Source: Proteiniphilum sp. X52 (GTDB lineage: Bacteria > Bacteroidota > Bacteroidia > Bacteroidales > Dysgonomonadaceae). Taken from it: a DNA stretch of 42,193 nt. How positions within the stretch are numbered: position 1 is the first letter of the stretch; each line of letters starts with the position of its first letter. Of this stretch, positions 26,598 to 42,193 are shown one piece after another. The notes beneath the pieces are model-generated. The model was not told the origin of the DNA. It made no database searches and worked only from the letters and a program-made list of their open reading frames with translations. Position numbers and translations under genes: made by a program. The stretch spans positions 1-42,193 of the forward strand of contig NZ_RDSD01000030.1 in the NCBI RefSeq assembly GCF_003712195.1. The letters run 5' to 3'.

Positions 26598-26644
26598 CCG
26601 ACGTGATGATTTCAGCAAATCAGTAAATTAACAAATCAGTATAT

Positions 26645-27892
26645 ATGTTTGATTTAGACAGGTGGCATGAAATATGGATCACTATCACGCACAATAAATC
26701 ACGGAGTGTGCTGACCGCCTTCAGCGTTTTCTGGGGAATGCTGATGCTGGTGCTGATGGTGGGATCAGGCAACGCGCTCGAAAAAGGAATTTTTTCACAG
26801 ATCGAGGGATTTGCCACCAATTCCTGTTTCTTCGAATCACAACGCACCACGCTTCCCCACAAGGGCTTCCGAAAAGGAAGGCGATGGGATATGACCAACA
26901 GCGATATTCCCGTGATCAAAGAGAAGGTGCGCGAATTGCAGCACATCTCCCCCATGCTGTTCAGCGGCGGCAATGAGAAGAATGTGGTAAGAGGCGACAA
27001 AAACGGTTCCTACCGGATCAAAGGCTGTTTTCCGGAATACGACCTGATAGAAAAAAGCAAAATGCTCCACGGACGGTATATCAACGATATCGATATCGCC
27101 GATAAGAGGAAAGTATGCGTCATCGGAGAACGCATCTATGAGGTGCTCTTCCAGAAGGGTGAAGATCCCACCGGAAAACAGATCCGCGTGAACGGCATCT
27201 ATTTCCAAGTGGTGGGGGTAGCCAGAAGTTCATCGGGAGTGAATATAGGCGGCGAGACAGCCGAAACGGTAGTACTCCCTTTCTCTACCATGCAGCAGGC
27301 TTTCAACCAGGGAAATATCATCCACCTGCTGGCAGTCACCGCCAAAGAGGGTGTGCCGGTAAAAAGAGTGCAGGACCAGATCGGAGAGATACTAAGACAA
27401 CAACACCAGATCTCACCCGACGACAAGGATGCGGTATGGAGCATGAATATCGAGGAGCAGTTCAAAATGTTCAACTACCTGGGTATCGGCATAGCCGCCC
27501 TGATATGGATCGTGGGACTGGGCACCCTTTTCGCGGGTGCCATCGGCGTGAGCAATATCATGCTGGTCACCGTGCGCGAGCGCACCAAGGAGATCGGCAT
27601 CCGGCGAGCTTTGGGAGCCACCCCCCGGAATATCATCGGACAGATTCTCAGTGAGAGCGTGGTGCTCACCGTATTGGCAGGACTCCTCGGTATTGTGCTG
27701 GGAGTGGGGCTGCTCCGGGGAGCCGGGATCATACTCAGCCAGAGTGACCAGTTCTTCAAAGATCCCCAAGTCTCGTTCGGCATGGCTGTCGGTTCGTTCC
27801 TCATCCTCATTGTGATTGGCGCTATGGCGGGATACATACCTGCACAACGGGCTATCTTGATTAAACCTGTGGAAGCGATCAGTGAGGAGTAA
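26645..27892 (+). CDS. MacB-like ABC transporter permease 2
   Basis: A 415-residue paralogue of permease 1 with the same layout: an N-terminal helix after RSVLTAFSVFWGMLMLVLMV, a MacB_PCD periplasmic domain, and three C-terminal helices. The conserved GVSNIMLVTVRERTKEIGIR and the closing PAQRAILIKPVEAISEE are present. It starts 48 bp after permease 1. It probably pairs with permease 1 around the shared ATPase. No separate ATP-binding domain is fused, unlike E. coli MacB. Confidence 0.92.
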   Translation: MFDLDRWHEIWITITHNKSRSVLTAFSVFWGMLMLVLMVGSGNALEKGIFSQIEGFATNSCFFESQRTTLPHKGFRKGRRWDMTNSDIPVIKEKVRELQHISPMLFSGGNEKNVVRGDKNGSYRIKGCFPEYDLIEKSKMLHGRYINDIDIADKRKVCVIGERIYEVLFQKGEDPTGKQIRVNGIYFQVVGVARSSSGVNIGGETAETVVLPFSTMQQAFNQGNIIHLLAVTAKEGVPVKRVQDQIGEILRQQHQISPDDKDAVWSMNIEEQFKMFNYLGIGIAALIWIVGLGTLFAGAIGVSNIMLVTVRERTKEIGIRRALGATPRNIIGQILSESVVLTVLAGLLGIVLGVGLLRGAGIILSQSDQFFKDPQVSFGMAVGSFLILIVIGAMAGYIPAQRAILIKPVEAISEE

Positions 27893-28014
27893 TAATGTGG
27901 GAAAGAGGGAAGGTCGATTTGATAGGATGATTTGCCGATTTATGAAATTTGAATTGGAAATCTGCGTAGCTAAATCTTGAATTTTGAATATGAAATTTGA
28001 AATATGAAAACTGT

Positions 28015-29121
28015 ATGAAGAAAGTATTGCGAATTGTAGGATTGACCCTGTTAGGTCTTTTGGTAATATCCACCTTTGTGTTTCTCTGGCAGAAATCGCG
28101 CCCGAAAATTGTGACTTACAAAATAGAGGCGGCCACCAAAGGTGATATCGAAAAACGGACTGTGGCCACAGGCAAAGTGGAACCGCGCAATGAGATCCTC
28201 ATCAAACCGCAGATGTCGGGCATCATTGCCGAGGTTTACAAAGAGGCGGGCGAAACCGTAAAGGCCGGAGATATCATCGCCAGGATACAGGTAGTGCCCG
28301 ACATGGTGAACGAGAGCAGCGCCGAGTCGCGTGTCGAAAGGGCCCGGTTGGCTGCCAATCAAAGCCGGATCAATTATGAGCGGGATAAGAAACTCTTTGA
28401 CAATGAAGTGATCTCAAGGGAAGAGTTCGAGAAGGTGGAATTACAGTACAAAAACGATCAGGAAGAACTGCGCGCCGCCAACGACAACCTGAGCTTGGTG
28501 CGCACCGGGATCACCAAGAGTTCGGCACAGACCAGCAACACGCTGGTACGCTCCACGGTAAGCGGCACTATCCTCGATGTTCCTGTCAAGGCGGGGAACT
28601 CGGTGATCCAGTCCAATAACTTCAACGATGGCACCACCGTGGCATCGGTAGCCGACCTGGGGGACATGCTTTTTGTCGGCAAGATCGACGAGACGGAAGT
28701 AGGTAAGCTCTCGGTGGAAATGCCCATGGAGATCACCATCGGCGCCATCCAGGACCTGAAGATACCCGCCTCGCTGGAGTATGTCTCGCCTAAAGGGACA
28801 GAAGAGAGCGGAGCCATCCTCTTCGAAATGAAAGCCGCCCTGCAATTGCCGCGGGATTTGTTTATCCGGGCAGGCTACAGCGCTAACGCCGATATTATTC
28901 TGGATCAGCGTAAAGATGTGGTAACCATTCCTGAGAGTTCAGTGGAATTCAGTGGCGACTCGGCTTTCGTCTATATGGTCAAGAGCGAGAAACCGCAGGA
29001 ATTCGAACGGAAGCATGTGAAAATCGGCCTCTCGGACGGGATCCGTATCGAAGTGACCGAAGGACTGAAAGAGAATGACAAGATCCGTGGAACAGAGATC
29101 ATTGAGGACAAGAAAAAATAA
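28015..29121 (+). CDS. HlyD/MacA-type periplasmic adaptor
   Basis: A membrane-fusion protein, 368 residues from the ATG at 28015. This start is chosen because MKKVLRIVGLTLLGLLVIS forms a clean membrane anchor; ATG 27997 would add MKYENC. It has a lipoyl-like half (VEPRNEILIKPQMSGIIAEVY), a coiled-coil hairpin (about 105-165), the second lipoyl half and a beta-barrel domain (VGKIDETEVGKLSVEMPMEI). It links the inner-membrane permeases to the TolC-like channel encoded 6 bp downstream. Confidence 0.92.
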   Translation: MKKVLRIVGLTLLGLLVISTFVFLWQKSRPKIVTYKIEAATKGDIEKRTVATGKVEPRNEILIKPQMSGIIAEVYKEAGETVKAGDIIARIQVVPDMVNESSAESRVERARLAANQSRINYERDKKLFDNEVISREEFEKVELQYKNDQEELRAANDNLSLVRTGITKSSAQTSNTLVRSTVSGTILDVPVKAGNSVIQSNNFNDGTTVASVADLGDMLFVGKIDETEVGKLSVEMPMEITIGAIQDLKIPASLEYVSPKGTEESGAILFEMKAALQLPRDLFIRAGYSANADIILDQRKDVVTIPESSVEFSGDSAFVYMVKSEKPQEFERKHVKIGLSDGIRIEVTEGLKENDKIRGTEIIEDKKK

Positions 29122-29126
29122 CGGCT

Positions 29127-30437
29127 ATGCATATCAGGACTATTATCATCGGCCTGTTCTTCAGCGCTTCCCTATTGCCGGCAACGGCACAACAGAAATA
29201 TACGCTGGCGGAGTGCATCGATATTGCGTTGGAGAACAATCGTAACATCAAACAGCAGGAAATCGGCAGGCAACAGCGGGAGATCGCTTACAGCCAGGCA
29301 CGCGCGGATCTGCTGCCCAACCTGAACGCTTCGGCGGGACAGAACTTCATATTCGGACGCTCCATCGGCCTCGATAACGTCTATCAGAACACCAACTCTT
29401 CCCAGACCACCTTCGGTGTCGGAGCCGACATCACCCTTTTCGACGGTCTGCGCATGAAGCACAACATCGACGCGCGCAAGGCCGACATGCAGGCGTCGGA
29501 AGCCGATCTGGAGAAGATGCGCGACGATGTGGTAATGAGTGTTTCCACCGCCTTCCTCCAGGCATTGCTCAACCGGGAGTTGCTGCGGATCGCGGAGAAC
29601 CAGATCGAGACCACCCAGGCCAACCTGCAACGACGGGGTGAATTAGTGAAAAGCGGCAAGATGGCACCGGGAGAACTCTATGAATTAGAAGCCCAATTGG
29701 CCAAGGAAGAACTGAACCGCGTGCAGGCGGAGAGCAACCTCAAACTGGCATTGCTCGATCTGGCCCAAATCATGGAACTGGAGGAATTCAACAATTTCGA
29801 TATCACGGCGCCCCCCGCGGAAACACTCATCAACGAAGCCACCCTTTTGCGGTCGGAAGCGGTATACGAAAGCGCGTTGTTGAATCGTCCGGAGATACGA
29901 GGCATGCGCTATCGGCTGGAAAGCAGTGAGAAAGAACTGTTGATGGCAAAGGCTCAATATTACCCCTCCCTCTCGTTCGGGGTGAATATGGGAACCGGCT
30001 ACTACAGGATGAGCGGCAGGGACAACACCTCTTTCAGTTCGCAGTTGCGCAACAACATGAGCAATTCGCTGGGTTTCAGCCTCCGCATTCCCATCTTCAA
30101 CAGGTTTCAGGTCAGGAACAGTGTCCACAAAGCAGAACTCGCCATCGCCAACTCACGACTGGAAATGGACAAAACCAAAGTCGAATTGCGCAAACGCATC
30201 GAGCAGGCTTATTACAATGCCACAGGAGCTAAAAGCCGCTGGGATGCCGCCCGGAAATCGATCCAAGCCAGCCGGGAAGCCTACCGTTTTACGGAAGAGA
30301 AATACGAGAGCGGCCGCGCCAACTCTTATGAACTGTTCCTGGCAAAAAACAACCTCGCACAAGTGCTGGGAGAAGAGGCCCAGGCCAAATATGAATACGC
30401 GTTCCGTTTGAAGATACTGGAATTGTTAAAAGATTGA
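29127..30437 (+). CDS. TolC-family outer-membrane efflux channel
   Basis: A 436-residue protein with signal peptide IIIGLFFSASLLPATAQQ and two OEP repeats, each of long alpha-helical hairpins. These include YTLAECIDIALENNRNIKQQ, the usual TolC opening, and ALLNRPEIRGMRYRLESSEK at the start of the second half. It is an outer-membrane trimer in known relatives and forms the exit duct. It lies 6 bp after the adaptor gene, completing a tripartite export operon of ATPase, two permeases, adaptor and channel. Confidence 0.94.
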   Translation: MHIRTIIIGLFFSASLLPATAQQKYTLAECIDIALENNRNIKQQEIGRQQREIAYSQARADLLPNLNASAGQNFIFGRSIGLDNVYQNTNSSQTTFGVGADITLFDGLRMKHNIDARKADMQASEADLEKMRDDVVMSVSTAFLQALLNRELLRIAENQIETTQANLQRRGELVKSGKMAPGELYELEAQLAKEELNRVQAESNLKLALLDLAQIMELEEFNNFDITAPPAETLINEATLLRSEAVYESALLNRPEIRGMRYRLESSEKELLMAKAQYYPSLSFGVNMGTGYYRMSGRDNTSFSSQLRNNMSNSLGFSLRIPIFNRFQVRNSVHKAELAIANSRLEMDKTKVELRKRIEQAYYNATGAKSRWDAARKSIQASREAYRFTEEKYESGRANSYELFLAKNNLAQVLGEEAQAKYEYAFRLKILELLKD

Positions 30438-31322: not shown

Positions 31323-31350
31323 ACGGAGGCTTGCGAAAGTCTCCGTTTTT
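31323..31350. terminator. Terminator between convergent genes
   Basis: ACGGAGGCTT (31323-31332) and AAGTCTCCGT (31337-31346) form a 10-bp stem with one wobble, around GCGA and followed by TTTT. It ends transcription of the GIN gene and sits at the stop of the convergent regulator gene. Confidence 0.75.
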
Positions 31351-32401
31351 ATTTCACGTCTGCCTCATTTGCCTCTGCATTCTTTTCCATATATTTCAAA
31401 ATATAACAACCATCTCCTTTTTTTGTATGAATGTTATATGTACAGCCCGCTTCTTTGAGACAATTTCTCAATTTACTCATTGTACTCATCAAGATTCGAT
31501 TAGCTGTATAATACTTGTCAGACCAAAATTTCTCTTTAATTTCTTCTTTGAGGAGTGTATAATCATCACTTTCAAGAAACATCAAAAGTATATTTGCCGG
31601 TTGATTAGGAATTTTTGTGATCTTCTTTTGTCCGATCAATTCATTTTTACGGGTATCCAACATTGTCTTCCCGATATAATAATATCTTCCCTTTTTAACG
31701 ATCTTATCCGGCCTGATCTTTCTTTTCCCGAGGTACAAATAATAAACTACCCCCAGTATCAATACTTCAAGAATAAACAGCGCGATGATCGCATTTTTAG
31801 GTATCAACCGGAATACGGTGAGCGGTGAATAGTTGACCAGCCCCTGGTAAGATATCTCACCAAATACTCCACCCTTTATGATCGGTGTCCGAGAGTTGAT
31901 GCGGTATCCCATAGTGTCTTCGCTCAATTCGGTATTATTTCCATGACACACCAGTATGAGAGAGCGTGCTTTGATACCCTTTTCATCCAGCTTCTTATCG
32001 AAAAGTTGCTGTAGCGTATCCGGTTTCAACCGGTTTACATGTAAAAGATACGATTGAAAGCCTTTCAACAACTCCTTTTCCGTATTCCCGCTCACTTCAG
32101 CCACTTTTGTTATAGTGGTATCTTCTGTCACAATTTTCTGATCTCTGACTCTCTCTTTTGTTGTAAACGGATCTACGATATGTATAGATACATACTCACC
32201 CTCCATCTTTAATAGCACTTCCTCATTAATGGCATGTTCAAACAGGGGTGGAATGTCCCGTTCCATCTTCGTCTTAGCTGCGTTGTATCCATTAATCAAG
32301 ACTATCGACAGCACAATTATGACCAAACCGACGATGATTAAGAGCAATGCAATTATCCTGTTGTATGTAGATCTACTGTAAATCATTGTGCTACGTTTCA
32401 T
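31349..32401 (-). CDS. Membrane-anchored winged-helix regulator (ToxR-like layout)
   Basis: A 350-residue protein with two membrane helices: residues about 13-34 (IIALLLIIVGLVIIVLSIVL) and about 215-235 (NAIIALFILEVLILGVVYYL). The 180-residue segment between them is probably periplasmic. The C-terminal domain after KRKIRPDKIVKKGRYYYIGK reads as an OmpR-type winged helix (ILLMFLESDDYTLLKEEI ... ANRILMSTMSKLRNCLKEAG, then a beta-wing GDGCYILKY). The order is the reverse of ToxR/CadC (DNA-binding domain at the C-terminus) but the logic is similar: a periplasmic sensor coupled to DNA binding at the membrane. It is divergent from the peptide/propeller cluster and close to a two-copy repeat that may be its operator. 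Confidence 0.82.
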   Translation of the reverse strand: MKRSTMIYSRSTYNRIIALLLIIVGLVIIVLSIVLINGYNAAKTKMERDIPPLFEHAINEEVLLKMEGEYVSIHIVDPFTTKERVRDQKIVTEDTTITKVAEVSGNTEKELLKGFQSYLLHVNRLKPDTLQQLFDKKLDEKGIKARSLILVCHGNNTELSEDTMGYRINSRTPIIKGGVFGEISYQGLVNYSPLTVFRLIPKNAIIALFILEVLILGVVYYLYLGKRKIRPDKIVKKGRYYYIGKTMLDTRKNELIGQKKITKIPNQPANILLMFLESDDYTLLKEEIKEKFWSDKYYTANRILMSTMSKLRNCLKEAGCTYNIHTKKGDGCYILKYMEKNAEANEADVK

Positions 32402-32500
32402 CTGCAAATATAAAATAAATCGGCCAATATGCGCAATGAATTTAATTTTTATTAAGCAAACCTCATATCGTTAACACATTGAAAACATAGGAATTATAAA

Positions 32501-32521: not shown

Positions 32522-32625
32522 AAATCTTCGTATAATAACGCTCCAAATTCTATTTTTATCGGTAATATTTGAATCACTCTAAAATATAAGTCTATGAATG
32601 CAAAAAAAATTTCACAATCTGTCTT

Positions 32626-32814
32626 ATGACGTTGTCTTTATTATTTTTTATTTGGTTAAAATCAAAAAACAGGCTCATAGAAACCGATCTGACGCTCTCA
32701 AATATCGAAGCGCTGGCATCGACCGAGGATGGGGGAAATGTTATATGCATAGGGAGCGGTTCACTCGATTGTCCGACACCGCATAGAAAAGTAGCTTTTA
32801 TACGCGAATTTTGA
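32626..32814 (+). CDS. NVEALA-type peptide 1 (leader out of frame at an A8 tract)
   Basis: A small secreted-peptide gene. The 62-residue frame reads LSLLFFIWLKSKNRLIETDL, then the signature TLSNIEALAS and a cargo with two Cys (VICIGSGSLDCPTPHRK). The frame lacks the basic start of its relatives. ATG 32594 upstream (MNAKK) is in another frame and meets a stop. One extra A in the A8 run at 32602-32609 would fuse it into a normal leader, MNAKKNFTICLMTLSLLFFI. Its TGA overlaps the ATG of the next propeller gene (TGATG at 32812-32816), so the two are translationally coupled. Confidence 0.65.
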   Translation: MTLSLLFFIWLKSKNRLIETDLTLSNIEALASTEDGGNVICIGSGSLDCPTPHRKVAFIREF

Positions 32815-33869
32815 TGGAAAAGGATAAAATTATTAGCAGGTATTATATATTATATTGTCTGCTTATTATATCCATAGGATGTAATAATGCAAATAACAGC
32901 CTTTATTACGATTCCTTTACGACCGGTATTTCCCTTTCAGGAAAAAGGCTGGAAACAGATTCGGTAATGCTTCGCTATCCTTTCAGGATCAAGCATAAAG
33001 ATAGTTTAGCTATTATTATGGATCTGCATCATCCCGACTATTTCTATCATGCATTTACCTATCCGCGATTTGAGTATCTCTTTTCTTTCGGGAAACGCGG
33101 GCAGGCCCCTGAAGAAATTCTATCGGCGGAAAATTTCAGGCTTACGGATAACGGGATGTGGGGGCTGGACGCCAATAAACATCTGCTTACCAAGATGTCG
33201 GTCGGAAATATTACCCAGGCGACAAACGAAAAAGAGACACCATTGGACAAAGAGATCATCCGTGCGCTGGATTTTGCCTTGTATGACGATTCTTGTTTTG
33301 TGATTCCGGATTATTCTGGTAAACACCGCTTCCATATTATGGACAAGAATGGGAATATAAAGTCCAGCCACGGAAAAATTCCCTCCCGGAAACATAAAAA
33401 GGGCGACATAGCATTGGCCCAGGCCTGGAGGAGTTTTATCGATTATAATCCCGAAAATCACACGCTCGCCATGGTAACTCAATTGGGAGAAGTATTGGAG
33501 ATCTATAATTTGAGGGACAGCACCCATGTCGTAAAAATAGGATCCCACGGAGAACCGGAATATAATGAGTCGGGGGGTATGGCTATTCCTTCTGGAATCA
33601 TGGGATTCAGCGACATACAAGTAACAAATGAATATATTTACACCGTTTTTCACGGAAGGAGTTTTAAAGAGATTATGCAACAGCCACAACCTACGACAAT
33701 CGACGGCGGGCAATATATCTACGTTTTCTCGTTGGAAGGAGATCCGCTTTACAGATACACGCTGGATCATTTTATTTACGGCATAGATGTCAACGAAAGA
33801 ACGAGGGAAATATATGCCGTAGATGTCAATTCGAATCAACCTGTTGTCAAATATCAATTAAAGCGTTGA
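32814..33869 (+). CDS. TolB-like (BF3164-type) beta-propeller lipoprotein 1
   Basis: About 351 residues. The lipoprotein signal LLIISIGC places an acylated Cys near residue 24. The rest is a predicted six-bladed propeller. Repeated blade-like strands include YLFSFGKRGQAPEEIL, ALDFALYDDSCFVIPDY, HTLAMVTQLGEVLEIYNL and YIYVFSLEGDPLYRYTLD. The family ending is GIDVNERTREIYAVDVNSNQ. BF3164-type proteins have no known enzymatic role. The ATG overlaps the stop of peptide 1, linking the two products one to one. A surface or periplasmic partner of the peptide is inferred. Confidence 0.82.
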   Translation: MEKDKIISRYYILYCLLIISIGCNNANNSLYYDSFTTGISLSGKRLETDSVMLRYPFRIKHKDSLAIIMDLHHPDYFYHAFTYPRFEYLFSFGKRGQAPEEILSAENFRLTDNGMWGLDANKHLLTKMSVGNITQATNEKETPLDKEIIRALDFALYDDSCFVIPDYSGKHRFHIMDKNGNIKSSHGKIPSRKHKKGDIALAQAWRSFIDYNPENHTLAMVTQLGEVLEIYNLRDSTHVVKIGSHGEPEYNESGGMAIPSGIMGFSDIQVTNEYIYTVFHGRSFKEIMQQPQPTTIDGGQYIYVFSLEGDPLYRYTLDHFIYGIDVNERTREIYAVDVNSNQPVVKYQLKR

Positions 33870-33873
33870 TGAG

Positions 33874-34752
33874 ATGAAATTACATTCCTTTACACTATTG
33901 ATAGGATCGTGTATCCTTTTGTTTTCCTGCAATGAGAGCAAGGAGAAAAAAGAGATCACAAAACTTGTCACAGAATGGCAGGACAAAGAGATCATTTTTC
34001 CGGAGGATTTGATTTTTACACGGTATGGGCAAGATGCCATACAGTATGAAATGCCGGAATCGGACTATAAGATTCTGTTGTATGTAGACTCCATAGGCTG
34101 TACCAGTTGCAAATTACAGCTCCACAAATGGAACGAGTTTATTGCGCAAGTGGATTCCCTGACGTCGGGAAGCGTGCCTGTATTACTCTTTTTCCACCCG
34201 AAAGACAAACGGGAATTGAGCTACCTGCTTAAACGGGATGGCATCACGATTCCGGTTTGCCTGGATGAGAACGACCGACTGAATTCCATCAACCGGTTTC
34301 CCTCCCGTGATGATTTTCAATGCTTCCTCCTGGACAAAGACAATAAAGTGGTCTATATCGGGAATCCCATCCATAATATCCGTATCAGGGAGATGTATTT
34401 ATCCCGGATCGCTCCGGAAGCCCATACCCCAACAACCCCATCAAGAAGCACTATCGTCCAGGCTGATCAGACGGAATTCAACCTCGGAACGCTGAAAAGG
34501 GGCAATTCCACAACAGTAACCGCTTTGATCCGAAATATAGGAGAAGTTCCGCTCGTCGTATACGATACCAAGGTGTCCTGTGGTTGCACAAGTATAAATT
34601 ACAAAAAAGAACCCGCTCTGCCCGGCTCGTCAATGGAAATAGAAATAACCTATAATGCGGAAGATCCGGGTTATTTCCATAGAACTGTTTCCATTTATGG
34701 AAACATGGATAATTCCCCCTTGATGATAAGGCTAAAAGGAAATACAAATTAA
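33874..34752 (+). CDS. Lipoprotein with thioredoxin-like and DUF1573 domains
   Basis: A 292-residue protein with lipobox LLFSC and acylated Cys near residue 19. The N-terminal domain (about 40-185) is thioredoxin-like with a CxxC in DSIGCTSCKLQLHKW and a following VPVLLFFHPKDKRELSYLL strand. The C-terminal DUF1573 domain (about 195-292) reads FNLGTLKRGNSTTVTALIRN ... VSCGCTSINYKKEPALPG. It starts 4 bases after propeller 1. A thiol-redox protein inside a cluster of Cys-containing secreted peptides suggests it forms or reduces their disulfides. This link is inference. Confidence 0.85.
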   Translation: MKLHSFTLLIGSCILLFSCNESKEKKEITKLVTEWQDKEIIFPEDLIFTRYGQDAIQYEMPESDYKILLYVDSIGCTSCKLQLHKWNEFIAQVDSLTSGSVPVLLFFHPKDKRELSYLLKRDGITIPVCLDENDRLNSINRFPSRDDFQCFLLDKDNKVVYIGNPIHNIRIREMYLSRIAPEAHTPTTPSRSTIVQADQTEFNLGTLKRGNSTTVTALIRNIGEVPLVVYDTKVSCGCTSINYKKEPALPGSSMEIEITYNAEDPGYFHRTVSIYGNMDNSPLMIRLKGNTN

Positions 34753-34810
34753 ACCCTCTGCAAAGAGGTTGTTTTCTATCAATTTATTTATTAATTTTAA
34801 TTTTCAAAGT

Positions 34811-35074
34811 ATGAAGAAAAAATTATTATAGGGCATATTCGCCCCCTCGCTTCTGGCAGCCGCAGGCTACGGAGTGAGTCAAACAATGAAAAGTGAGGCA
34901 AATCTGGGTGATTTGGGATTGGCCAATGTGGAGGCATTGGCACAGGGAGAAAGTGGAGGACGCGAAGATTGTGAACCGGCCTATGACATTTGTTGTGAGT
35001 TGGTTATTTACCCTGATGGAAGTTACGGTGAAGATTGCTTATTGGATCATAAAAAAAAGCCTGGATGGCTATAA
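34811..35074 (+). pseudogene. NVEALA peptide 2, leader broken by TAG at codon 7
   Basis: The frame reads MKKKLL, then TAG (34829-34831), then GIFAPSLLAAAGYGVSQTMK, the signature LGDLGLANVEALAQGE, and a cargo with five Cys (DCEPAYDICCELVIYP ... EDCLLDHKKKPGWL). The intact relative at 36293 has TCG (Ser) at codon 7, so a single C-to-A change killed the signal peptide. Internal starts (GTG 34874, ATG 34886) would give a product without an export signal. It lies 59 bases after the thioredoxin-DUF1573 gene. Confidence 0.85.
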
Positions 35075-35201
35075 GTCAAAAATCTGATTAAATCATGGGG
35101 GTACATAAATTATTGCATATATTAATTGAGAAGTAAATTAGCATATTTACGGAGGCAAGTATATTTTATGTACCTCTGTTACTTTTATTATTCAATTGAT
35201 T

Positions 35202-36278
35202 ATGAGTATTGTATATAAAACAGTTGTCGGACTGACAATATCGATATTAGTAAGTTGTAATTCGAGCCACAAGCAGGATATGACTATAAGATTCCAGGAA
35301 GAACACTTTCTGAAACATACAGCATACGATACGGAATTATTTATTAAACAAGGACAAATCACCGTGATTGACTCTTTCTTAATTCTTGTGTCAATTCAAC
35401 AAGATCCCCTATGCAAGATATATTCCATTCCCCAAAACATGAAAGAACTTTACGGTTATGGTAGTATTGGGAATGGGCCGGGGGAATTTTTACAACCCTT
35501 ACTCACCTATTCACATAACAATACTTTTGGGTTAAATGAAATAAATAAAAAAGAATTGGCTGTCTTGCAATTAGTCAATGAGAATAAAAATGTATCCATT
35601 ATTGAATCCCGTCGTCTAAAGGCCGTCACCAAAAATGAGAAAGAAAAAGTTTTTCGAACCGATTACTACTTCGCAAGATTAGATAATGAACATTATGTTT
35701 CTCTTTTATACGAAGGGGAGAATAAATTCTTTTCTTTATTTGACAGTACCTTAACATTAATATGCCGATTTGGAGAATCTCCTATTCCAGAAGAAGTGTC
35801 ACCAATGGTAGCGGTCAATCGCCTTCAAGGACGAGTTGCCGCATCCGATGGGACAATGGTTTTTGCTACTACTTACTTACCATATCTGGCTTGTTACCAA
35901 TTAAATAATGAGGCCATGGAAAAAAAGTGGAATATTTTTTACAATCAACCATATTATGCTGTAAGAAATGAAGACTTGCTTTATGATAAAGATAAATCAT
36001 TTGGACAAATGATGAATCTTAAGAAGGACGACCACTTCATCTATTTGTTATACTTAGACCAATTGTTAAGTGACTATGATTTCAATGAAATCAACAAATC
36101 CATGGCCAATGTTATTTTGGTTTTTGATTATGACGGAAATGCAATCGCAAAACTGCATTTAAGTTGCAGAATAAATAGGATGGCATTGTCTAACGATGGA
36201 AAAAAACTATATGGAATAGCTCATTTACCAGAGCCTACAATTGTTGAATTCAATCTACCCCTCACCATGAAACAATAA
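35202..36278 (+). CDS. TolB-like beta-propeller lipoprotein 2
   Basis: About 358 residues from the ATG at 35202. The signal ends ISILVSC with an acylated Cys near residue 20. The body is propeller-like: LYGYGSIGNGPGEFLQPLL is the conserved first-blade G-x-GPGEF motif, and the end reads INRMALSNDGKKLYGIAHLP then EPTIVEFNLP, typical of the BF3164 group. It follows the broken peptide 2 gene by about 130 bases and precedes intact peptide 3 by 14 bases. The gene is more AT-rich than the first propeller gene, as are the next propeller genes, suggesting separate acquisition. Confidence 0.82.
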   Translation: MSIVYKTVVGLTISILVSCNSSHKQDMTIRFQEEHFLKHTAYDTELFIKQGQITVIDSFLILVSIQQDPLCKIYSIPQNMKELYGYGSIGNGPGEFLQPLLTYSHNNTFGLNEINKKELAVLQLVNENKNVSIIESRRLKAVTKNEKEKVFRTDYYFARLDNEHYVSLLYEGENKFFSLFDSTLTLICRFGESPIPEEVSPMVAVNRLQGRVAASDGTMVFATTYLPYLACYQLNNEAMEKKWNIFYNQPYYAVRNEDLLYDKDKSFGQMMNLKKDDHFIYLLYLDQLLSDYDFNEINKSMANVILVFDYDGNAIAKLHLSCRINRMALSNDGKKLYGIAHLPEPTIVEFNLPLTMKQ

Positions 36279-36292
36279 TAACACTGCAAAGT

Positions 36293-36547
36293 ATGAAGAA
36301 AAAATTATTATCGGGCATATTCGCCCTCGCGCTTCTGGCAGCCGCAGCCTACGGAATGAGGAGTCAAACAATGAAAAGTGATTCCATCCTTTCGGATTGG
36401 GCATTGATGAATGTGGAAGCTCTTGCCAATGGAGAAGTTATTATCGGCGTACCCTGTATGCAAACATGTTCCAGGTGTTGGTGTTACTATCCGCCAATAG
36501 ACGTTGATCCAAACGACTATTGGATACAAGGAGAACCTTATTATTAA
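36293..36547 (+). CDS. NVEALA peptide 3 (intact)
   Basis: An 84-residue secreted peptide. The signal KKKLLSGIFALALLAAAAYG is followed by a pro-segment with the signature LSDWALMNVEALANGE. The cargo contains five Cys and many aromatics (CMQTCSRCWCYYPPIDVDPN, ending YWIQGEPYY). It is the intact version of the leader seen broken in peptide 2; the first 20 codons differ by a few bases only. Family knowledge: NVEALA proteins are found in Bacteroidales, function unknown. A perfect hairpin follows 12 bases after the stop, so its mRNA probably ends here. Confidence 0.88.
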   Translation: MKKKLLSGIFALALLAAAAYGMRSQTMKSDSILSDWALMNVEALANGEVIIGVPCMQTCSRCWCYYPPIDVDPNDYWIQGEPYY

Positions 36548-36558
36548 TTGGTTTATGA

Positions 36559-36600
36559 GAGGATGTATAAAATTTATCAGCAACCGTTTTATACATCCTC
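36559..36600. terminator. Perfect 14-bp hairpin after peptide 3
   Basis: GAGGATGTATAAAA (36559-36572) pairs exactly with TTTTATACATCCTC (36587-36600) around a 14-nt loop. It would separate peptide 3 from the next propeller gene, or act as an attenuator between them. Confidence 0.65.
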
Positions 36601-36642
36601 CCTGATAAAAATCAGAAATAATCTTTAAATAAATATAGTAAA

Positions 36643-37701
36643 ATGATTAGTCAGATTTCTAACCAAAGGAAGTATTTATCACTTCTATTAAATCTTTTAT
36701 TCCTTTTATCTTGTAATAAAACAATTAATAACCCGATGCAACATTTCGATAAAATCCCCAAAAAGGAATTAAATCATTCACACATTATTAATCTGGAGAA
36801 ATTTGATATATTAAAACCGATAGATGCAATCCGGATTAATAATTCATATATGATTTGGGATAATAAAAATGAAAATATATTTAATCTTATTGATCCAATC
36901 TCAAACAAAGTGATCAAAGGAGTCAATATAGGGAATGGTCCTAATGAAATTATATCTCCTAGTAGTTTTCAAAATCAAGATGGTAAATTTTTGATTTATG
37001 ATATTTCACAAAGAAGAATAAACCAAATCGACATATCATCAGATACCACTTTAATCATAAAAAAAAATCAGGAAATTAATACCAATAAAAGATTATTCGT
37101 GATAAACCGCATTGGCTCAAATATTATAGCTACCGGTATATTAGAAGATTATTGGTTGGCTAATATGACAACAGATGGGGAGATAACGTCAGGCATTGAG
37201 TTCCCTGCTTTTGAAGAAACGAATAACACCCCCAAGGTGCAATTATCCATGTTATATATAAGCACGCTAATGGCAAATACGTCAGATAATAAGAAAGTTG
37301 TTGCCGTGACTCAAAAACATGGGGTGGTATCTTTTCTCAATTATATCAACAATTCGATATTAAATGAATATAAGCAAATAAAATACTATGCGCCAAATTT
37401 CACTATAGAAGAAAGGGGAAATATCGCTTTCTCTAAAAATAATCAAGTTGGATTCTGTGGAGTGGACTGTGATAATGATTATGTTTACGCATTATACTCG
37501 GGAAAAACTTTTGCGAAAGAGGGAATGCTCAATCATCATTGTGAAAATTTATTAATCTATGATTGGAATGGCAACCCTATCAAACATTATGTGTTAGATA
37601 TTCCATTGTACTCTATGAGATATAATGAAAAAAACAATTTAATATATGGAATAGCATATTATCCCGAAGGGATTTTAGTAGAATATCAATTAGATGATTG
37701 A
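36643..37701 (+). CDS. TolB-like beta-propeller lipoprotein 3
   Basis: A 352-residue protein with lipobox LLFLLSC and an acylated Cys near residue 25. Propeller strands include IDAIRINNSYMIWDNKNENI, the conserved GVNIGNGPNEIISPSSF, and a closing LYSMRYNEKNNLIYGIAYYP. The gene is notably AT-rich compared with the chromosomal genes to the left. It lies behind the hairpin after peptide 3 and in front of the peptide 4 leader. The function of the family is unknown; pairing with a neighbouring peptide is inferred from gene order. Confidence 0.82.
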   Translation: MISQISNQRKYLSLLLNLLFLLSCNKTINNPMQHFDKIPKKELNHSHIINLEKFDILKPIDAIRINNSYMIWDNKNENIFNLIDPISNKVIKGVNIGNGPNEIISPSSFQNQDGKFLIYDISQRRINQIDISSDTTLIIKKNQEINTNKRLFVINRIGSNIIATGILEDYWLANMTTDGEITSGIEFPAFEETNNTPKVQLSMLYISTLMANTSDNKKVVAVTQKHGVVSFLNYINNSILNEYKQIKYYAPNFTIEERGNIAFSKNNQVGFCGVDCDNDYVYALYSGKTFAKEGMLNHHCENLLIYDWNGNPIKHYVLDIPLYSMRYNEKNNLIYGIAYYPEGILVEYQLDD

Positions 37702-37816
37702 AAGGGAAAAGGTAATACAATGTAATTAACAGTGACTAAGAAATTATTTACAGACAAGAGTGAATCACAATGAACGAAGAAATCATCGGTATATCATTCA
37801 TTTAAATTTCTGTTCT

Positions 37817-37972
37817 ATGAAGAAAAGTGTTTTATCGGGGCTGTTCGCCCTCACGCTTCTGGCAACCGCGGGTTTCGGAGTGCGCAAAAGTATGAAAAGT
37901 GATGTTAATCTGAGTGATTTGACATTGACCAATTTTATATTTCTACTAAATAAACAATTATTAAGATCATGA
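37817..37972 (+). pseudogene. NVEALA peptide 4, leader only (truncated before the NVEALA motif)
   Basis: The frame begins KKSVLSGLFALTLLATAGFG, then MKSDVNLSDLTLTN. Where relatives read VEALANGE it runs into FIFLLNKQLLRS and stops at 37972. The 143 bases from 37791 to 37933 match 41516-41658 with only five differences, including the 5' UTR. The loss of motif and cargo is therefore abrupt at 37934. The stop overlaps the ATG of the next propeller gene (ATGA at 37969). A plausible missing cargo lies beyond that gene at 39015-39158. Confidence 0.85.
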
Positions 37973-39015
37973 AAATTAATATACTATTCGTGTCACTTGT
38001 TATTCTTCTTTTTGCGTGCAGTTCTAATCAAAACCGCTATTTGGATGCCCACTTGTTTTCAGTCAAGGATTTTAAAACCGCCGAAGAATTGACGGGGAAA
38101 ATACTGGAATTGAGCGATTTGACAATGCGACCGACCGATATATTGGTCTGCGACTCACTTCTAATAACCATTGAATATGGAGGGGATAAACTTTTCCATA
38201 TCTATGACCTGAAAGAACAAAGACAAGTGAACCAATGCATTGTGACGGGACAGGGGCCTAATGATATGCTTCAGCCGGAATTTATGCACAGTGACGGATA
38301 TTTTCTGAAGATTATTGATTTAGGTACCTCAACGGTATATGAATATGAAATTAAGGACTTCATCACTAACACTGAGCCAAAACCTATTCATCGAATTAAG
38401 CTGGAGAAACAGATATTCCTGACTGCGCAGCAAGCAGGTGACAATATAATAGGATATTCGTACGGCACTGAGAACCGGGTGTACAAATTTGACCTGACAG
38501 GTAAAAAAACAGAGGCACTCATCAACTACCCTGTTTCTTCAATCGAATACTCCGATATGGAAAAAATGGATGCTTTTTACATGAAATTTATCACTAACGG
38601 AAGTGACAAGATCGCACTGTGCCATTATATGACAGACTTAATTGAGATATATGATACAAATGGTATTTTACAAAAAAGGATGCATGGACCGGAACAATTT
38701 CTAGCTCATTTCAAACAAATACAAGACGGGCCTATGGGAGCTTCTCCTGTAAAAGGAATGAACCGGGATGCTTTTATGTGCCCACGGAATGCGGGAAATG
38801 ATTTTTTTGTCTTATATAACGGCGGATATATTGACGATCCTGATCATACGACATCCTGCAGCAGGCTTTTTTCTTTCTCATGGGATGGTACTCCTCAAAA
38901 AATTTACAATCTGGATGATCCTATTTTTTCATTTACAGTCGATACACAAAACAAAAAAATATACGGTATCAGCGAAACTCCGGAATTCCATATTGTGGAA
39001 TACTCATACAATTAG
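37969..39015 (+). CDS. TolB-like beta-propeller lipoprotein 4
   Basis: A 348-residue protein with lipobox LLFAC and an acylated Cys near residue 17. It has the conserved CIVTGQGPNDMLQPEFM first blade, later strands such as LIEIYDTNGILQKRM, and the family ending IFSFTVDTQNKKIYGISETP. The ATG lies within the stop region of the truncated peptide 4. It appears inserted between that leader and a peptide-like cargo remnant, so its present position may be recent. It ends with TAG at 39013-39015. Confidence 0.83.
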   Translation: MKINILFVSLVILLFACSSNQNRYLDAHLFSVKDFKTAEELTGKILELSDLTMRPTDILVCDSLLITIEYGGDKLFHIYDLKEQRQVNQCIVTGQGPNDMLQPEFMHSDGYFLKIIDLGTSTVYEYEIKDFITNTEPKPIHRIKLEKQIFLTAQQAGDNIIGYSYGTENRVYKFDLTGKKTEALINYPVSSIEYSDMEKMDAFYMKFITNGSDKIALCHYMTDLIEIYDTNGILQKRMHGPEQFLAHFKQIQDGPMGASPVKGMNRDAFMCPRNAGNDFFVLYNGGYIDDPDHTTSCSRLFSFSWDGTPQKIYNLDDPIFSFTVDTQNKKIYGISETPEFHIVEYSYN

Positions 39016-39158
39016 GAACAATAGGGTCTACCGGAACAGATTGTAATGGAAATCCTTTTGACTCTAGAGAGACAATCACTAGAAAATGCCAAATACTATT
39101 TGAGGAAGGTTGGCTGGATTCTAACCCCTTATTGCTTTATTATGAACTTAGAGAATAA
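39015..39158 (+). pseudogene. Detached peptide cargo remnant
   Basis: A start-less open stretch right after propeller 4 reads GTIGSTGTDCNGNPFDSRET then ITRKCQILFEEGWLDSNPLL and ends YYELRE with TAA at 39156-39158. It has two Cys, short polar segments and the size of an NVEALA cargo, but no leader. The neighbouring truncated leader at 37817 lacks exactly such a cargo. I infer they were once one gene; a chance open frame remains possible. Confidence 0.5.
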
Positions 39159-39183
39159 TTTTCTCGAAAAAACTCAATTTTCA

Positions 39184-41163
39184 ATGAAACATATTATCCG
39201 CTTTTCACTCTTTTCTCTTATTCTGTTTTGTAGTTGCATTGGCAAAAGACAAAGTGGGTTGGAGCAAGCCTTACTATTGGCGGGAGATAACAGGCCGGAA
39301 TTGGAAAAAGTACTGAAGCGTTATTCCTCTGTTCCGGCCGATAGTCTGAAATATAAAGCCGCATGCTTCCTTATAGAAAATATGCCGGGTTACCATTATT
39401 ATGAAGGAGAAGCGCTGGAAAAATATACAGACTATTTCAAATTACTGGGAGAAGATAAAAAAACGCCCGATCAAATCCTCGATTCTTTACACAATGTATA
39501 TGGTCCGTTTAATAGATCAACCCTTACATTAAAGTTTGACATCAAAGAGATCGACTCTGCCTATTTATGCGAAAATATTGATCTGGCTTTCAAAGTATGG
39601 ACTGAAAAACCATGGGGGAAAAATGTGACCTTCGGCGACTTTTGCGAATATATCTTACCCTATCGTACAGGCAACGAAAAATTGACAAACTGGAGAGAAA
39701 ACTATCTGGAAGAATATCGATCTTTCGTGGAAAGCATCACCGCAGAGGATCCGGTTGAGGCTGCTATCGCACTACGACGTAACATCATAAAAGAAATGCG
39801 GCCGGAAAGATCCACCATGACAAGTCCCCCCGGTTATCCCAGTCTTGACGCCTTTACAGCAAAATATTTAACCGGATCCTGTGATAACATCAACCAATTT
39901 GTGCTGTTCCTGTTAAGGGCAAATGGAATTCCTTGCGCCACGGATTATATGCCCCTCAAGAGTCGTGTCAACGTGGGACATTCATGGGTATCATTGAGGA
40001 ACAACAAAAACGAATATTATGCAATCGATTATTTTGGAGACGTTACCTATATCTCCGGTACTGAACTCAACCGGAGAACACCCAAACCAAAAGTTTACCG
40101 CAAAACCTTTTCCATGAATACCTCCCGGTTTAATCTACTTAGGAGAAAATCAAAATCAGTCCCCAGGGAATTCTCCAAATACAATTATAGATTTTATGAT
40201 GTAACGGGGTTATATTCAAACCACTTGACAGACTTACCCATACCCAAAGACCTTATATACAAGGATAAGCCGAAGCACACAAAGGTTTTCTACCTGTGCA
40301 TGCTGTCAAAAATGAATTGGACTCCGGTAGACTGGACAGATATATATAAGAAAGGTGTTATTACTTTCAAAAATATCGAAGCTGGGGATATTTTCAGGGT
40401 TGCCGTCCATGAAAACGATCAATTTGTATTTATTACGGATCCGTTCAAATTGCATAACCAGACTTATAAAATTAATCTGCTCGAAAATTATGAAAGTGGC
40501 AGTGATAAGCCTTTTATTTTATATTCAAAGTATTCGTTGGAAGGAGAGACCCGTTTCAGGGAGCGGATGGTTGGCGGTGTATTTGAAGGTTCGGACAATC
40601 CAGATTTCAAAAATCCGGACACACTCCATATCATCAAGGACAGGCCGTTTCGTTTGTTCCATCACGTCACGCTATCTCCCGAAAACAGATACAGATATGT
40701 ACGGTATAAAGGACCGAAAGAAAGCCATTGTAATGTCGCAGAAGTGCAGTTCCTCTCGGATTCCATCGTTTTACAGGGAAAAATCATCGGCACACCCGGA
40801 AGTTGGCAAGATAGGGGCACGCATGAGTTTACCAACGTGTTTGACGGTTCAACCGAAACATCTTTTGACCATAATACCCCAAGTGACGGATGGGCAGGAC
40901 TTGATCTGGGACAACCTGAAAAAATAACGGAGATCATTTATTCACCTCGGAATTACGATAATTACATCAAAAAAGGAGACCGGTACGAATTGTTCATAAG
41001 CGACAGGGAGGGCTGGAGATCATTAGGCGTACAGGTTGCCTCTTCAGATTCGTTACTGTATGAGAATATTCCTTCGGGACGCTTGTACTATCTGAAAAAT
41101 CATTCAGGGGGAATCCAGGAACGTCCGTTTACAATGGAAAAAGGTAAAGCCGTTTTTCTTTAG
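39184..41163 (+). CDS. Transglutaminase-like lipoprotein with discoidin-like C-terminus
   Basis: About 659 residues from the ATG at 39184, chosen because it gives a lipoprotein signal (FSLFSLILFCSC); the longer frame from 39046 runs through the cargo remnant. The transglutaminase-like core (about 170-300) shows the Cys in YLTGSCDNINQFVLFLL, the His in VNVGHSWVSL and the Asp in YYAIDYFGD, a complete Cys-His-Asp triad. The C-terminal region (about 540-635) resembles an F5/8 type C sugar-binding fold (VFDGSTETSFDHNTPSDG ... WAGLDLGQPEKITEIIYSPR). It may act as a surface thiol protease or cross-linker on the peptides; this is inference. Confidence 0.8.
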   Translation: MKHIIRFSLFSLILFCSCIGKRQSGLEQALLLAGDNRPELEKVLKRYSSVPADSLKYKAACFLIENMPGYHYYEGEALEKYTDYFKLLGEDKKTPDQILDSLHNVYGPFNRSTLTLKFDIKEIDSAYLCENIDLAFKVWTEKPWGKNVTFGDFCEYILPYRTGNEKLTNWRENYLEEYRSFVESITAEDPVEAAIALRRNIIKEMRPERSTMTSPPGYPSLDAFTAKYLTGSCDNINQFVLFLLRANGIPCATDYMPLKSRVNVGHSWVSLRNNKNEYYAIDYFGDVTYISGTELNRRTPKPKVYRKTFSMNTSRFNLLRRKSKSVPREFSKYNYRFYDVTGLYSNHLTDLPIPKDLIYKDKPKHTKVFYLCMLSKMNWTPVDWTDIYKKGVITFKNIEAGDIFRVAVHENDQFVFITDPFKLHNQTYKINLLENYESGSDKPFILYSKYSLEGETRFRERMVGGVFEGSDNPDFKNPDTLHIIKDRPFRLFHHVTLSPENRYRYVRYKGPKESHCNVAEVQFLSDSIVLQGKIIGTPGSWQDRGTHEFTNVFDGSTETSFDHNTPSDGWAGLDLGQPEKITEIIYSPRNYDNYIKKGDRYELFISDREGWRSLGVQVASSDSLLYENIPSGRLYYLKNHSGGIQERPFTMEKGKAVFL

Positions 41164-41541
41164 GCCATCGGAAAAGAATGGTCGGTCTGGAATCGGTGAA
41201 CCCTCATTCAGGAACATGCTATTGAAACAAAAACCTAAGAAGATCGAATAAATAGCCGACAGAATTTGAACAGAATCTTAACAATTTATTCTTTTGTCAA
41301 TTCTCATTTATTCTGTTCCTTTACAAGAAAAACAGTAATGAATATAAATAGAACACTAATATTCAACATATTAGAAAAAATGAGTTATAAGTGAGTCAAA
41401 AAAATGGTTTAAATAATGAACTTTGCCACCTTTGCGAAATGGACAAAAATGAACTTATTGAAAACGAAGAAGCAAAAACTCCTTCTCCTTCGGAGGAAGG
41501 AAGTATAAATTAATCATATCATTCATTTAAATTTCTGTTCT
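41164..41541 (+). promoter_or_regulatory. Promoter region of peptide 5 with candidate operator B (41378-41398)
   Basis: AAATGAGTTA (41378-41387) and AAGTGAGTCA (41389-41398) reproduce operator A with two changes and the same 11-bp spacing. About 20 bases further down, GAACTTTG (41418-41425) resembles a -7 element, so the repeat would overlap the -33 zone as an activator site does. The last 26 bases before the ATG are shared with the peptide 4 leader. No gene is seen in the gap. Confidence 0.5.
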
Positions 41542-41871
41542 ATGAAGAAAAGAGTTTTATCGGGGCTGTTCGCCCTCGCGCTTCTGGCAACCGCAGGTTT
41601 CGGAGTGCACAAAAGTATGAAAAGTGATGTTAATCTGAGTGATTTGGCATTGACCAATGTGGAGGCGTTGGCTAACGGGGAATATCCCGGAATTGGAGAG
41701 CCTGGAAAGGATTATAAGTATGTAATGTTATTTGAAGTATCTACAGAAAGAAGATGCATAGATGGCTACTTTTATGTCATTACATATTATGGCTCTGATT
41801 GCTATTTTGAAGGTAACGTGCCTTGTCCGGGACCTCATTATACGGTAACCCTAACAGGATACTGTGTATAA
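41542..41871 (+). CDS. NVEALA peptide 5 (intact)
   Basis: A 109-residue secreted peptide. The signal is KKRVLSGLFALALLATAGFG, the pro-segment ends LSDLALTNVEALANGE, and the cargo of about 60 residues has four Cys and is rich in Tyr (YPGIGEPGKDYKYVMLFEVS ... RRCIDGYFYVITYYGSDCYF, ending LTGYCV). The leader is almost identical to that of truncated peptide 4, whereas the cargo is unrelated to that of peptides 1-3. Candidate operator B lies 150 bases upstream, and a strong hairpin follows the stop. Confidence 0.9.
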   Translation: MKKRVLSGLFALALLATAGFGVHKSMKSDVNLSDLALTNVEALANGEYPGIGEPGKDYKYVMLFEVSTERRCIDGYFYVITYYGSDCYFEGNVPCPGPHYTVTLTGYCV

Positions 41872-41879
41872 GATCAAAG

Positions 41880-41921
41880 ATAGGGAGAGGATAAGATCCC
41901 TTAATCTTATTCTCTCTCTAT
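41880..41921. terminator. Long hairpin after peptide 5
   Basis: ATAGGGAGAGGATAAGAT (41880-41897) and ATCTTATTCTCTCTCTAT (41904-41921) form an 18-bp stem with two G-T or mismatch positions and a 6-nt loop. It would end the peptide 5 message before the next gene. Confidence 0.7.
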
Positions 41922-41975
41922 AATGATTGAAATAGGAAAGGACAAAATTATACAATCATACAATCTACAGAACTT

Positions 41976-42193
41976 ATGAATACAAAGTATTTTTATATTG
42001 CGGGGTTGGTTACGTTATTTTCTCTTACGTCTCCCACATGTGCAACCAGTATTCAGGAAAATACGAGTAATATTATTATCAACCTTCCCTCTGGTCATAA
42101 TAACGATTTAATATCTGACCATCTTCAATTATCTGATATTATATACTTGGAAACAATAGACTTGTCTTTGATCAAAAGTATTAGACGGTTAAT
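41976..42193 (+). CDS. Six-bladed beta-propeller protein (partial, runs off the window)
   Basis: The ATG at 41976 opens a frame that is still open at the window end. It begins with a signal peptide (FYIAGLVTLFSLTSPTCA), then NIIINLPSGHNNDLISDHLQ and LSDIIYLETIDLSLIKSIRR. The LSDIIYLET...LIxSIxR pattern is the usual opening of the 6-bladed beta-propeller (DUF4934-like) family, distinct from the four BF3164-type propellers upstream. It follows peptide 5, keeping the alternating peptide/propeller order. Confidence 0.7.
   Translation, partial: MNTKYFYIAGLVTLFSLTSPTCATSIQENTSNIIINLPSGHNNDLISDHLQLSDIIYLETIDLSLIKSIRRL

Follow-up and report, generated by a model that had tools for sequence, protein, structure and literature searches.

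A polymorphic peptide and propeller lipoprotein array with its own membrane sensor in Proteiniphilum sp. X52, a candidate bacteriocin-immunity-like regulon

What are small secreted-type peptide genes doing in front of large surface lipoprotein genes, and what controls them? The question is raised by a 42,193-nucleotide contig of Proteiniphilum sp. X52 (NZ_RDSD01000030.1, assembly GCF_003712195.1; the whole stretch is called the window here), where five NVEALA-type peptide genes, two of them damaged, and four open PF15869 propeller lipoprotein genes form an alternating series (32626-41871) beside a divergent membrane regulator. A preliminary description of the window had read each peptide as exported, cleaved near its NVEALA motif, disulfide-handled and recognised by the adjacent propeller. 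Its adjacency, co-variation, disulfide handling and regulator all gained support in our analysis. We give a probability of about 0.5 to the reading that the locus encodes a polymorphic system of peptides and cognate propellers, run by its own transmembrane sensor and resembling a bacteriocin-immunity regulon, a function that we assign by analogy.

Peptides and propellers as matched pairs

Two collections of loci were compared. The first set consists of 61 stretches, the window included, in which 118 NVEALA-type open reading frames (ORFs) were called with custom profiles; these include remnants and four near-identical copies of the core peptide of one genome (G012). The second consists of 78 named loci trimmed at 10 kb, which were collected with a profile of the core propeller (32811-33869 in the window; best 80 of 100 matches) and are therefore selected for that gene. 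For pair counts, five named loci were dropped because their genomes also figure in the first set, which left 73. Curated Pfam cut-offs were used (27 bits for PF14055), and leaders were called hydrophobic ("Sec leader") by eye.

In the genome of Proteiniphilum sp. X52 itself, 10 NVEALA matches over the cut-off and 14 PF15869 matches at E ≤ 0.01 are spread over several contigs. The next gene is a propeller, by custom profile, for all nine testable NVEALA genes, the tenth lying at a contig end. With 14 matches in 4,429,412 bases, the chance that a PF15869 gene starts within 500 bp downstream of a given gene on the same strand is about 0.0008. A propeller starts within that distance of 95 of the 118 first-set ORFs (7 more have one within 1100 bp, 3 lie at ends, 13 are without) and of 144 of the 170 peptides in the 73 named loci (6 more within 1100 bp, 6 at ends, 14 without). 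Enrichment of propellers beside NVEALA genes, a check that the preliminary description had named beforehand, is thus clear against chance. For five of the 13 propeller-less first-set genes, the gene that comes next encodes a PF17170 or PF13970 lipoprotein over the cut-off, for one a sub-threshold PF17170 match and for a seventh a protein without a Pfam match; such lipoproteins take the place of PF15869 in some pairs. Several of the seven peptides with a propeller at 500-1100 bp have an extra gene of about 200 residues in between, found in one cargo group (L111 7569-8189, L115 9197-9862 and 12490-13083, L121 7617-8204), and three of these proteins given to Pfam had no match.

Among 392 genomes of the order, NVEALA was found in 21, PF15869 in 55 and both in 18. 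A class-wide draw gave NVEALA in 6 of 396 genomes, all of the same order, and the named Sphingobacterium loci carry NVEALA by custom profile. The closest named relative of the core propeller, among the matches listed, is that of Proteiniphilum acetatigenes DSM 18083 (89% identical). Spread by plasmids was considered and rejected: three Phocaeicola plasmids carry only distant propellers, 24-41% identical, a related plasmid protein being annotated "BF3164 family lipoprotein". In the genus of the window, NVEALA-propeller pairs also lie in or beside an operon of a membrane fusion protein (MFP), two resistance-nodulation-division (RND) subunits and TolC (L074, L059, L065, L068 and L071, named by eye); in L074 the pair sits between RND1 and TolC.

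Co-variation was measured as the similarity of cargoes (the residues after the motif) against the similarity of propellers for pairs of different genomes, with partners shuffled inside each genome, which preserves phylogeny. Pairs were excluded if the cargo was shorter than 18 residues, the propeller shorter than 250 residues or the propeller more than 500 bp away; one peptide was kept per propeller, and duplicate cargoes inside one genome were removed. Cargo and propeller co-varied in the 73 pairs of the first set (r=0.709, null maximum 0.342, 0/1000 shuffles as high; r=0.628 for pairs between families) and in the 118 pairs of the named set (r=0.881, null maximum 0.458, 0/1000). With core-type pairs removed from both sets, the remaining 126 pairs from 59 genomes still gave r=0.656 (null maximum 0.354, 0/2000), whereas leader against propeller in these non-core pairs gave r=0.074, reached by 899 of 2000 shuffles; this null is informed only by genomes with at least two pairs (26 genomes, 93 pairs). 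Where the best match of a cargo, scoring at least 60, fell in a genome with several pairs, the best match of its propeller in that genome was the partner in 45 of 53 cases, where 16.2 were expected. Scored by gap-penalised identity, leaders resemble one another more inside a genome (0.46) than across genomes (0.31), and cargoes are unlike in both comparisons (0.05 and 0.00). One cargo, CGGPKTYG...NCKD.SGCQ, is shared by Proteiniphilum and Sphingobacterium loci and has a less similar relative in Parabacteroides. Cargo and propeller form matched types that are held together across genera, and the leader does not follow them. The second check named beforehand, on whether cargo and propeller trees co-vary, was therefore positive across genomes and families, and we consider cognate pairing of peptide and propeller very probable.

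The part of the peptide that follows the motif has a median length of only 37 residues; leader and motif together take up about 45 in the window's genus. All 191 cargoes compared have at least two Cys and 171 have an even number (2 in 90, 4 in 62, 6 in 18, 8 in one; odd in 20). Over 191 propellers, 99% conservation is seen at one Cys column, which we take to be the lipobox Cys. The AlphaFold2 (AF2) model of the core propeller has a predicted local distance difference test of 90.2 and a predicted template modelling score of 0.87, and its Foldseek matches are NHL propellers, PAL, a DUF4221 protein and BF0058; the solved structure of the DUF4221 (PF13970) protein, 3s9j, is among them.

The regulator, the core cluster and the upstream repeats

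The divergent regulator (351 residues) has PF00486 as its sole Pfam match. No kinase or receiver domain was detected in it by Pfam, a receiver being the mark of a response regulator, and its N-terminal part aligns to a kinase sensor. Its AF2 model has long helices at 11-67 and 204-228 around a domain, and the C-terminus of the model matches the effector domains of SaeR, PhoB and NsrR. In Proteiniphilum sp. UBA5283 and in Sphingobacterium, a histidine kinase with a response regulator stands at the position of the regulator, and the sensors of the two are homologous (hhalign probability 98.6%, E 1.3e-15, 194 columns). Because the kinase and one-component sensors are homologous over these 194 columns, the one-component form looks like a kinase sensor joined to an output domain, with the kinase and the receiver lost. 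Membrane one-component regulators of the ToxR/CadC type have a winged-helix output and a periplasmic sensor. The window regulator is similar in being membrane-bound with a winged-helix output and a periplasmic sensor, but differs in that its DNA-binding domain is C-terminal and its sensor has a homologue in the histidine kinase that occupies this position in other genomes. The genome holds a second copy of the regulator (contig C3, 422-1456), 43% identical and open for 344 codons.

An NVEALA-type peptide lies directly upstream of the core propeller in 61 of the 78 named loci. Bacteroides cellulosilyticus DSM 14838 contributes three core loci. Of these 61 core cargoes, 52 fit C.{1,9}[GA][SDTN][VIL][DEV]C and 29 fit C.G.GS[VIL]DC; the core cargo type, as in the window gene at 32626, also occurs in 12 places of the first set. 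The core peptide (GS[VIL]DC type) adjoins a regulator or a kinase in 57 of the 61, namely a one-component-type regulator in 47 (22 divergent; 25 on the same strand, mostly in Bacteroides) and a kinase in 10. The regulator profile is permissive; among 11 regulators checked, PF00486 was over the cut-off in five (the window, L109, L137, L161 and L169), under it in five (L112, L120, L157, L180 and L170) and absent in L111. Exactly two predicted transmembrane (TM) segments precede residue 260 in 27 of 30 same-strand regulators.

Downstream of the core propeller, a thioredoxin-like DUF1573 protein is found in 56 of the 78 named loci, 53 of the 56 having a CxxC motif. The disulfide handling put forward in the preliminary description is supported by this protein together with the even Cys counts of the cargoes. 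A transglutaminase is present in 53 named loci, an S26 peptidase in 42 and Wzy_C in 38, almost all on the same strand, and 16 of the 78 trimmed loci keep the order core propeller, thioredoxin, transglutaminase, S26, Wzy_C. Variable peptide-propeller cassettes lie between the core propeller and the thioredoxin gene in 21 loci, and in 22 the thioredoxin gene follows directly. Given to Pfam, the Bacteroides oleiciplenus locus (L170) had DUF1573, S26 and Wzy_C over the cut-off and transglutaminase, F5/8C and Trans_reg_C under it. Several Bacteroides loci have a further ORF of some 150 residues behind Wzy_C (L170 19173-19616, also L161 and L173); the L170 protein had no Pfam match. Iron regulation was considered and rejected, since BT0662 (O-antigen ligase) and BT0664 (propeller) have P values of 0.13 and 0.35 in the Bacteroides thetaiotaomicron iron table accessible from PMC10434189.

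Upstream of the peptide genes we found a 17-bp direct repeat with an 11-bp phase, RTGAGTTATAARTGAGT (the TGAGT box), which is a likely candidate operator. The genome has eight copies. Seven begin 96-162 bp ahead of an NVEALA leader, which in some cases is a remnant, and the eighth lies 82 bp before a lipoprotein-like gene divergent from the second regulator copy. That regulator copy adjoins this box, and the lipoprotein-like gene is truncated by the contig end. A reversed control pattern had no matches. Several copies share flanks by duplication; around the intact repeat the contexts of C30a, C19 and C3 differ. In this genome, a direct repeat with a one-turn phase is found almost only in front of peptide-propeller units. 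The TGAGT box occurs in 3 of 31 genomes searched (eight copies here, four in G012 and two in G007), and three of the four G012 boxes lie before NVEALA genes. A genome of a different family (G165) has its own 11-bp repeat, AAATGTGACGCAAATGTGAC, with seven copies in 4.1 Mb at up to one mismatch; four have a PF14055 match no more than 350 bp downstream, and for the other three the nearest one is 1.6, 5.5 and 7.6 kb away.

Perfect direct repeats of a 7-mer at a spacing of 11 are present in 23 of 114 distinct upstream regions, compared with 2.1 in shuffles and with 1-7 at every other spacing from 7 to 33. Upstream of the core peptide, all 10 kinase loci have an 11-bp repeat, as do 15 of the 21 loci with a divergent one-component regulator. 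The box AGAATT-N5-AGAATT is found there in 7 of 10 kinase loci, in 0 of 21 divergent one-component loci and in 0 of 29 others, and therefore box and regulator type go together. A second 11-bp repeat of this AGAATT type, ACAGAATTNNNACAGAAT, lies 121-122 bp upstream of four TGAGT boxes in the X52 genome, its copies being at 41259-41276 in the window and on contigs C19 and C44; it may be a relic or a second input. The dedicated membrane regulator of the preliminary description is thus upheld and extended with candidate operator sites, and we consider it likely that the array is the regulon of this sensor.

Organisation of the array in the window

The features of the array are listed in Table 1. 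All four window propellers exceed the PF15869 (TolB_like) cut-off, and PF14055 membership was found for three of three window peptides given to Pfam as well as for the gene at 41542. The core peptide has a short leader without the usual lysine-rich start.

Table 1. Features of the peptide-propeller array and its regulator in the window.
Position	Strand	Feature	Evidence
31349..32407	-	Divergent membrane regulator: TM, periplasmic sensor, TM, PhoB-type DNA-binding domain	PF00486 (Trans_reg_C) 28.6 bits
32503..32519	+	Operator candidate GTGAGTTATAAGTGAGT, 11-bp direct repeat	Repeat search
32626..32814	+	Core peptide gene, NIEALA, cargo of GSLDC type, short leader	PF14055 37 bits (32626-32811)
32811..33869	+	Core propeller lipoprotein	PF15869 2.8e-81; AF2 propeller model
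33874..34752	+	Thioredoxin-like (CTSC) DUF1573 lipoprotein	PF07610 3.9e-25
34811..35074	+	NVEALA peptide gene broken by in-frame TAG at codon 7 (34829-34831)	PF14055 54.2 bits with one TAG
35202..36278	+	Propeller lipoprotein	PF15869 37.9 bits, 1.7e-9
36293..36547	+	Open NVEALA peptide gene	PF14055 35.9 bits
36643..37701	+	Propeller lipoprotein	PF15869 95.8 bits, 3.8e-27
37817..37972	+	NVEALA leader remnant, no motif core, no cargo	112/117 bases as in leader of 41542 gene
37969..39015	+	Propeller lipoprotein	PF15869 64.8 bits, 1.1e-17
39018..39089	+	Cargo-tail remnant of NVEALA gene, 24 residues	70/72 bases as in end of intact NVEALA gene, contig C44, own genome
39184..41163	+	Transglutaminase-like / F5-8C lipoprotein	PF01841 (Transglut_core) and PF00754 over cut-off
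41259..41276	+	Second box ACAGAATTTGAACAGAAT	121 bp upstream of other box; 4 genome copies
41380..41396	+	Operator candidate ATGAGTTATAAGTGAGT	Repeat search
41542..41871	+	Open NVEALA peptide gene	PF14055 47.7 bits
41976..42193	+	Start of next gene, truncated by contig end	Open ORF

The preliminary description had reported alternating cassettes with overlapping codons and with embedded thioredoxin-DUF1573 and transglutaminase-like lipoproteins. The overlaps (TGATG at 32812-32816, ATGA at 37969-37972) and both lipoproteins are present, the latter with Pfam matches over the cut-off. The alternation is real, but two of the five peptide genes are damaged and a cargo-tail scar remains of another. 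The open part of the TAG-broken gene (34874-35071) still scores 38.7 bits against PF14055, and the leader remnant (37829-37933) scores 17.2 bits, under the cut-off. Because a leader remnant and a cargo end flank one propeller gene (37969), the cassettes of the window have been cut and reshuffled. The peptide gene at 41542 probably opens a second transcription unit.

To the left of the regulator lie a MacB-type ATP-binding cassette transporter set with MFP and TolC (24616-30437) and then a DUF2807-like protein, these too named by eye. Farther left, at 448-12079, two tyrosine-recombinase-like genes and primase-like, relaxase-like and IS66-like transposase genes (all named by eye) suggest a mobile element. 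A dedicated exporter was considered and rejected: of the 78 named loci, MacB-MFP-TolC relatives were found near only two, both of Proteiniphilum, and RND pumps near seven, so that the transporter genes of the window are taken as local neighbours outside the core.

Known systems, a possible mechanism and other explanations

Plantaricin-type class II bacteriocin regulons share their layout with the pneumococcal blp regulon. According to the accessible text of PMC4739728, blp combines leader peptides with cognate immunity genes located in a variable region; it also has a pheromone, a kinase/regulator pair and promoters with 9-bp tandem direct repeats. The loci described here are similar: their short peptides join a shared leader to a variable end and have partner genes in the same units, one conserved member resembles a pheromone, a sensor system is present, promoters carry direct repeats, and cassettes occupy a variable region. 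A specific partner gene is indicated by adjacency and co-variation, and a sensor with direct-repeat operators by computed candidate sites, with exceptions. In contrast to blp and plantaricin, the leader here is hydrophobic with an NVEALA motif, a double-glycine leader (by eye) and a C39 exporter (by pattern scan) were not found, the partner is a propeller lipoprotein of about 350 residues, the regulator is a one-component membrane protein, and transglutaminase, S26 and Wzy_C are neighbours. Bacteroidetocins, per the accessible text of PMC6671954, are small Cys-bearing peptides of Bacteroidales with a thiol oxidoreductase gene in the region, a 15-residue double-glycine leader, a double-glycine peptidase transporter and no obvious immunity protein. 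The shared traits are small Cys peptides, the same order and a thiol oxidoreductase or thioredoxin-type gene nearby; a 15-16 residue double-glycine leader with its transporter was not found here, the leader being about 45 residues and no C39 motif being detected, and the word "propeller" is absent from that accessible text.

PF14055, PF15869, PF17170 and PF13970 are family labels, and window proteins belong to the first two over the cut-off. In the literature searched, subscription papers excepted, no paper naming NVEALA was found, "BF3164" appeared in a single 2007 phylogeny paper among the accessible texts, and those texts yielded no paper on pairing, a regulon or a cluster of these families in Bacteroidales. 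The accessible main text of a 2023 survey of ribosomally synthesised and post-translationally modified peptides of Bacteroidales (PMC10352776) is without the words propeller, TolB, transglutaminase and thioredoxin. Our preferred reading takes its logic from bacteriocin-immunity regulons; by composition the system fits none of the known systems with which it was compared.

We propose that, once exported, the peptide would receive its disulfides from the thioredoxin-DUF1573 protein. Cleavage behind the NVEALA motif, for which the linked S26 peptidase may be responsible, and release of the peptide would follow. The cognate outer-membrane propeller would bind it and shield the producer as an immunity protein does, and the sensor would read the conserved core peptide, either propeller-bound or free, and switch on the whole set. 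The locus would then be a pheromone-controlled regulon of the bacteriocin-immunity kind, with a variable slot for new peptide-propeller cassettes. Competition with self-protection as its purpose is a tentative assignment, to which we give somewhat less than even odds. The chances are evenly balanced that these loci form an undescribed class in Bacteroidales and Sphingobacteriales, in which a sensor fused to a DNA-binding domain reads a disulfide peptide and runs exchangeable cassettes through lineage-specific repeats, with maturation by thioredoxin-DUF1573, transglutaminase, S26 and a Wzy_C ligase.

Several observations weigh against this proposal. Three of the 61 core loci have no neighbouring regulator and one more is at a contig start. 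One G012 box, which is unassigned, is not directly before an NVEALA gene, neither G007 box is (one precedes an MFP-RND operon, the other a lipoprotein-like gene), and only four of seven G165 boxes directly precede a PF14055 match. In the 29 core loci without a divergent regulator, 11-bp repeats are found in 5 and 10-bp repeats in 16. A dedicated kinase matching the second box is seemingly absent from the X52 genome (best match 28%). The RND and MacB counts given above, 7 and 2 of 78, concern relatives of the genes seen in the window's genus, and a pattern scan found the C39-type exporter motif in none of the ORFs longer than 450 aa in both sets. The class-wide draw of 396 genomes had no NVEALA match beyond the order. 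Several cargo types are common to distant genera, which is unusual for arms-race weapons. Damaged peptides next to complete propellers do not clearly outnumber the opposite case, and because of this there is no strong sign of orphan immunity; orphan immunity through decay was dropped as evidence for lack of a clear asymmetry, with the reservation that the "broken" label is noisy, many such genes being full peptides with unusual motifs.

The pairs might instead only signal, the peptides being messages and the propellers receptors, decoys or carriers that tune the sensor, with no killing. The core peptide type spans Bacteroides to Sphingobacterium beside a regulator or kinase, and the sensors carry a domain between two predicted TM segments, as such a role would have it; but no sensor of their own was seen beside the variable cassettes (no systematic search was made), their diversity would go unexplained, and transglutaminase, S26 and Wzy_C are not obviously needed for a signal alone. 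We regard pure signalling as rather unlikely. Peptide and propeller might also build a displayed structure or an inhibitor, serving adhesion, protease inhibition or nutrient capture, with antigenic or substrate variety, and those same three neighbours could cross-link, process or glycosylate it. The matched types, the near-invariant lipobox-type Cys and the decay and reshuffling of cassettes in the window are compatible with a surface complex, which we nevertheless find unlikely, given that the peptides are so short and that three window peptides match only NVEALA above the Pfam cut-off.

The co-variation could also reflect shared descent of linked genes whose products never meet. The cargo lies closer to the propeller than the leader does, and linkage alone can yield co-variation. 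A control with the preceding propeller, possible for 14 cassettes only and so underpowered, gave r=-0.056 across genomes against 0.407 for the next propeller, yet across families the next propeller fell to r=0.007 in that subset, both propellers being near zero. On the other hand, co-variation is absent for the leader of the same gene, matched pairs persist between genera even though leaders differ, and 45 of 53 best hits agree, which makes linkage without contact improbable. More doubtful still is an enzymatic role, in which the propeller would modify its own peptide much as PAL, a six-bladed lyase, acts on peptide hormones. PAL (3fvz) is among the best Foldseek matches of the core propeller, but at rank 7, below the binding propellers of NHL domains. 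Because only one Cys, one Gly and one Pro column reach 90% over 191 propellers (Glu 84%, Asp 79%), a shared catalytic set is not evident.

Under our preferred reading of cognate pairs run by a membrane sensor, two families without an assigned function in the literature searched gain a shared context of matched pairs, a regulator and DNA sites. The fusion of a sensor to a DNA-binding domain, where relatives keep a kinase, would clearly exemplify the collapse of a two-component system into a single protein. To our knowledge, few extracellular peptide signalling routes are known in Bacteroidales, and if the pairs signal, they would add one. If they act in competition, Bacteroidales would hold a large reservoir of narrow-range peptides and the genes for resistance to them.

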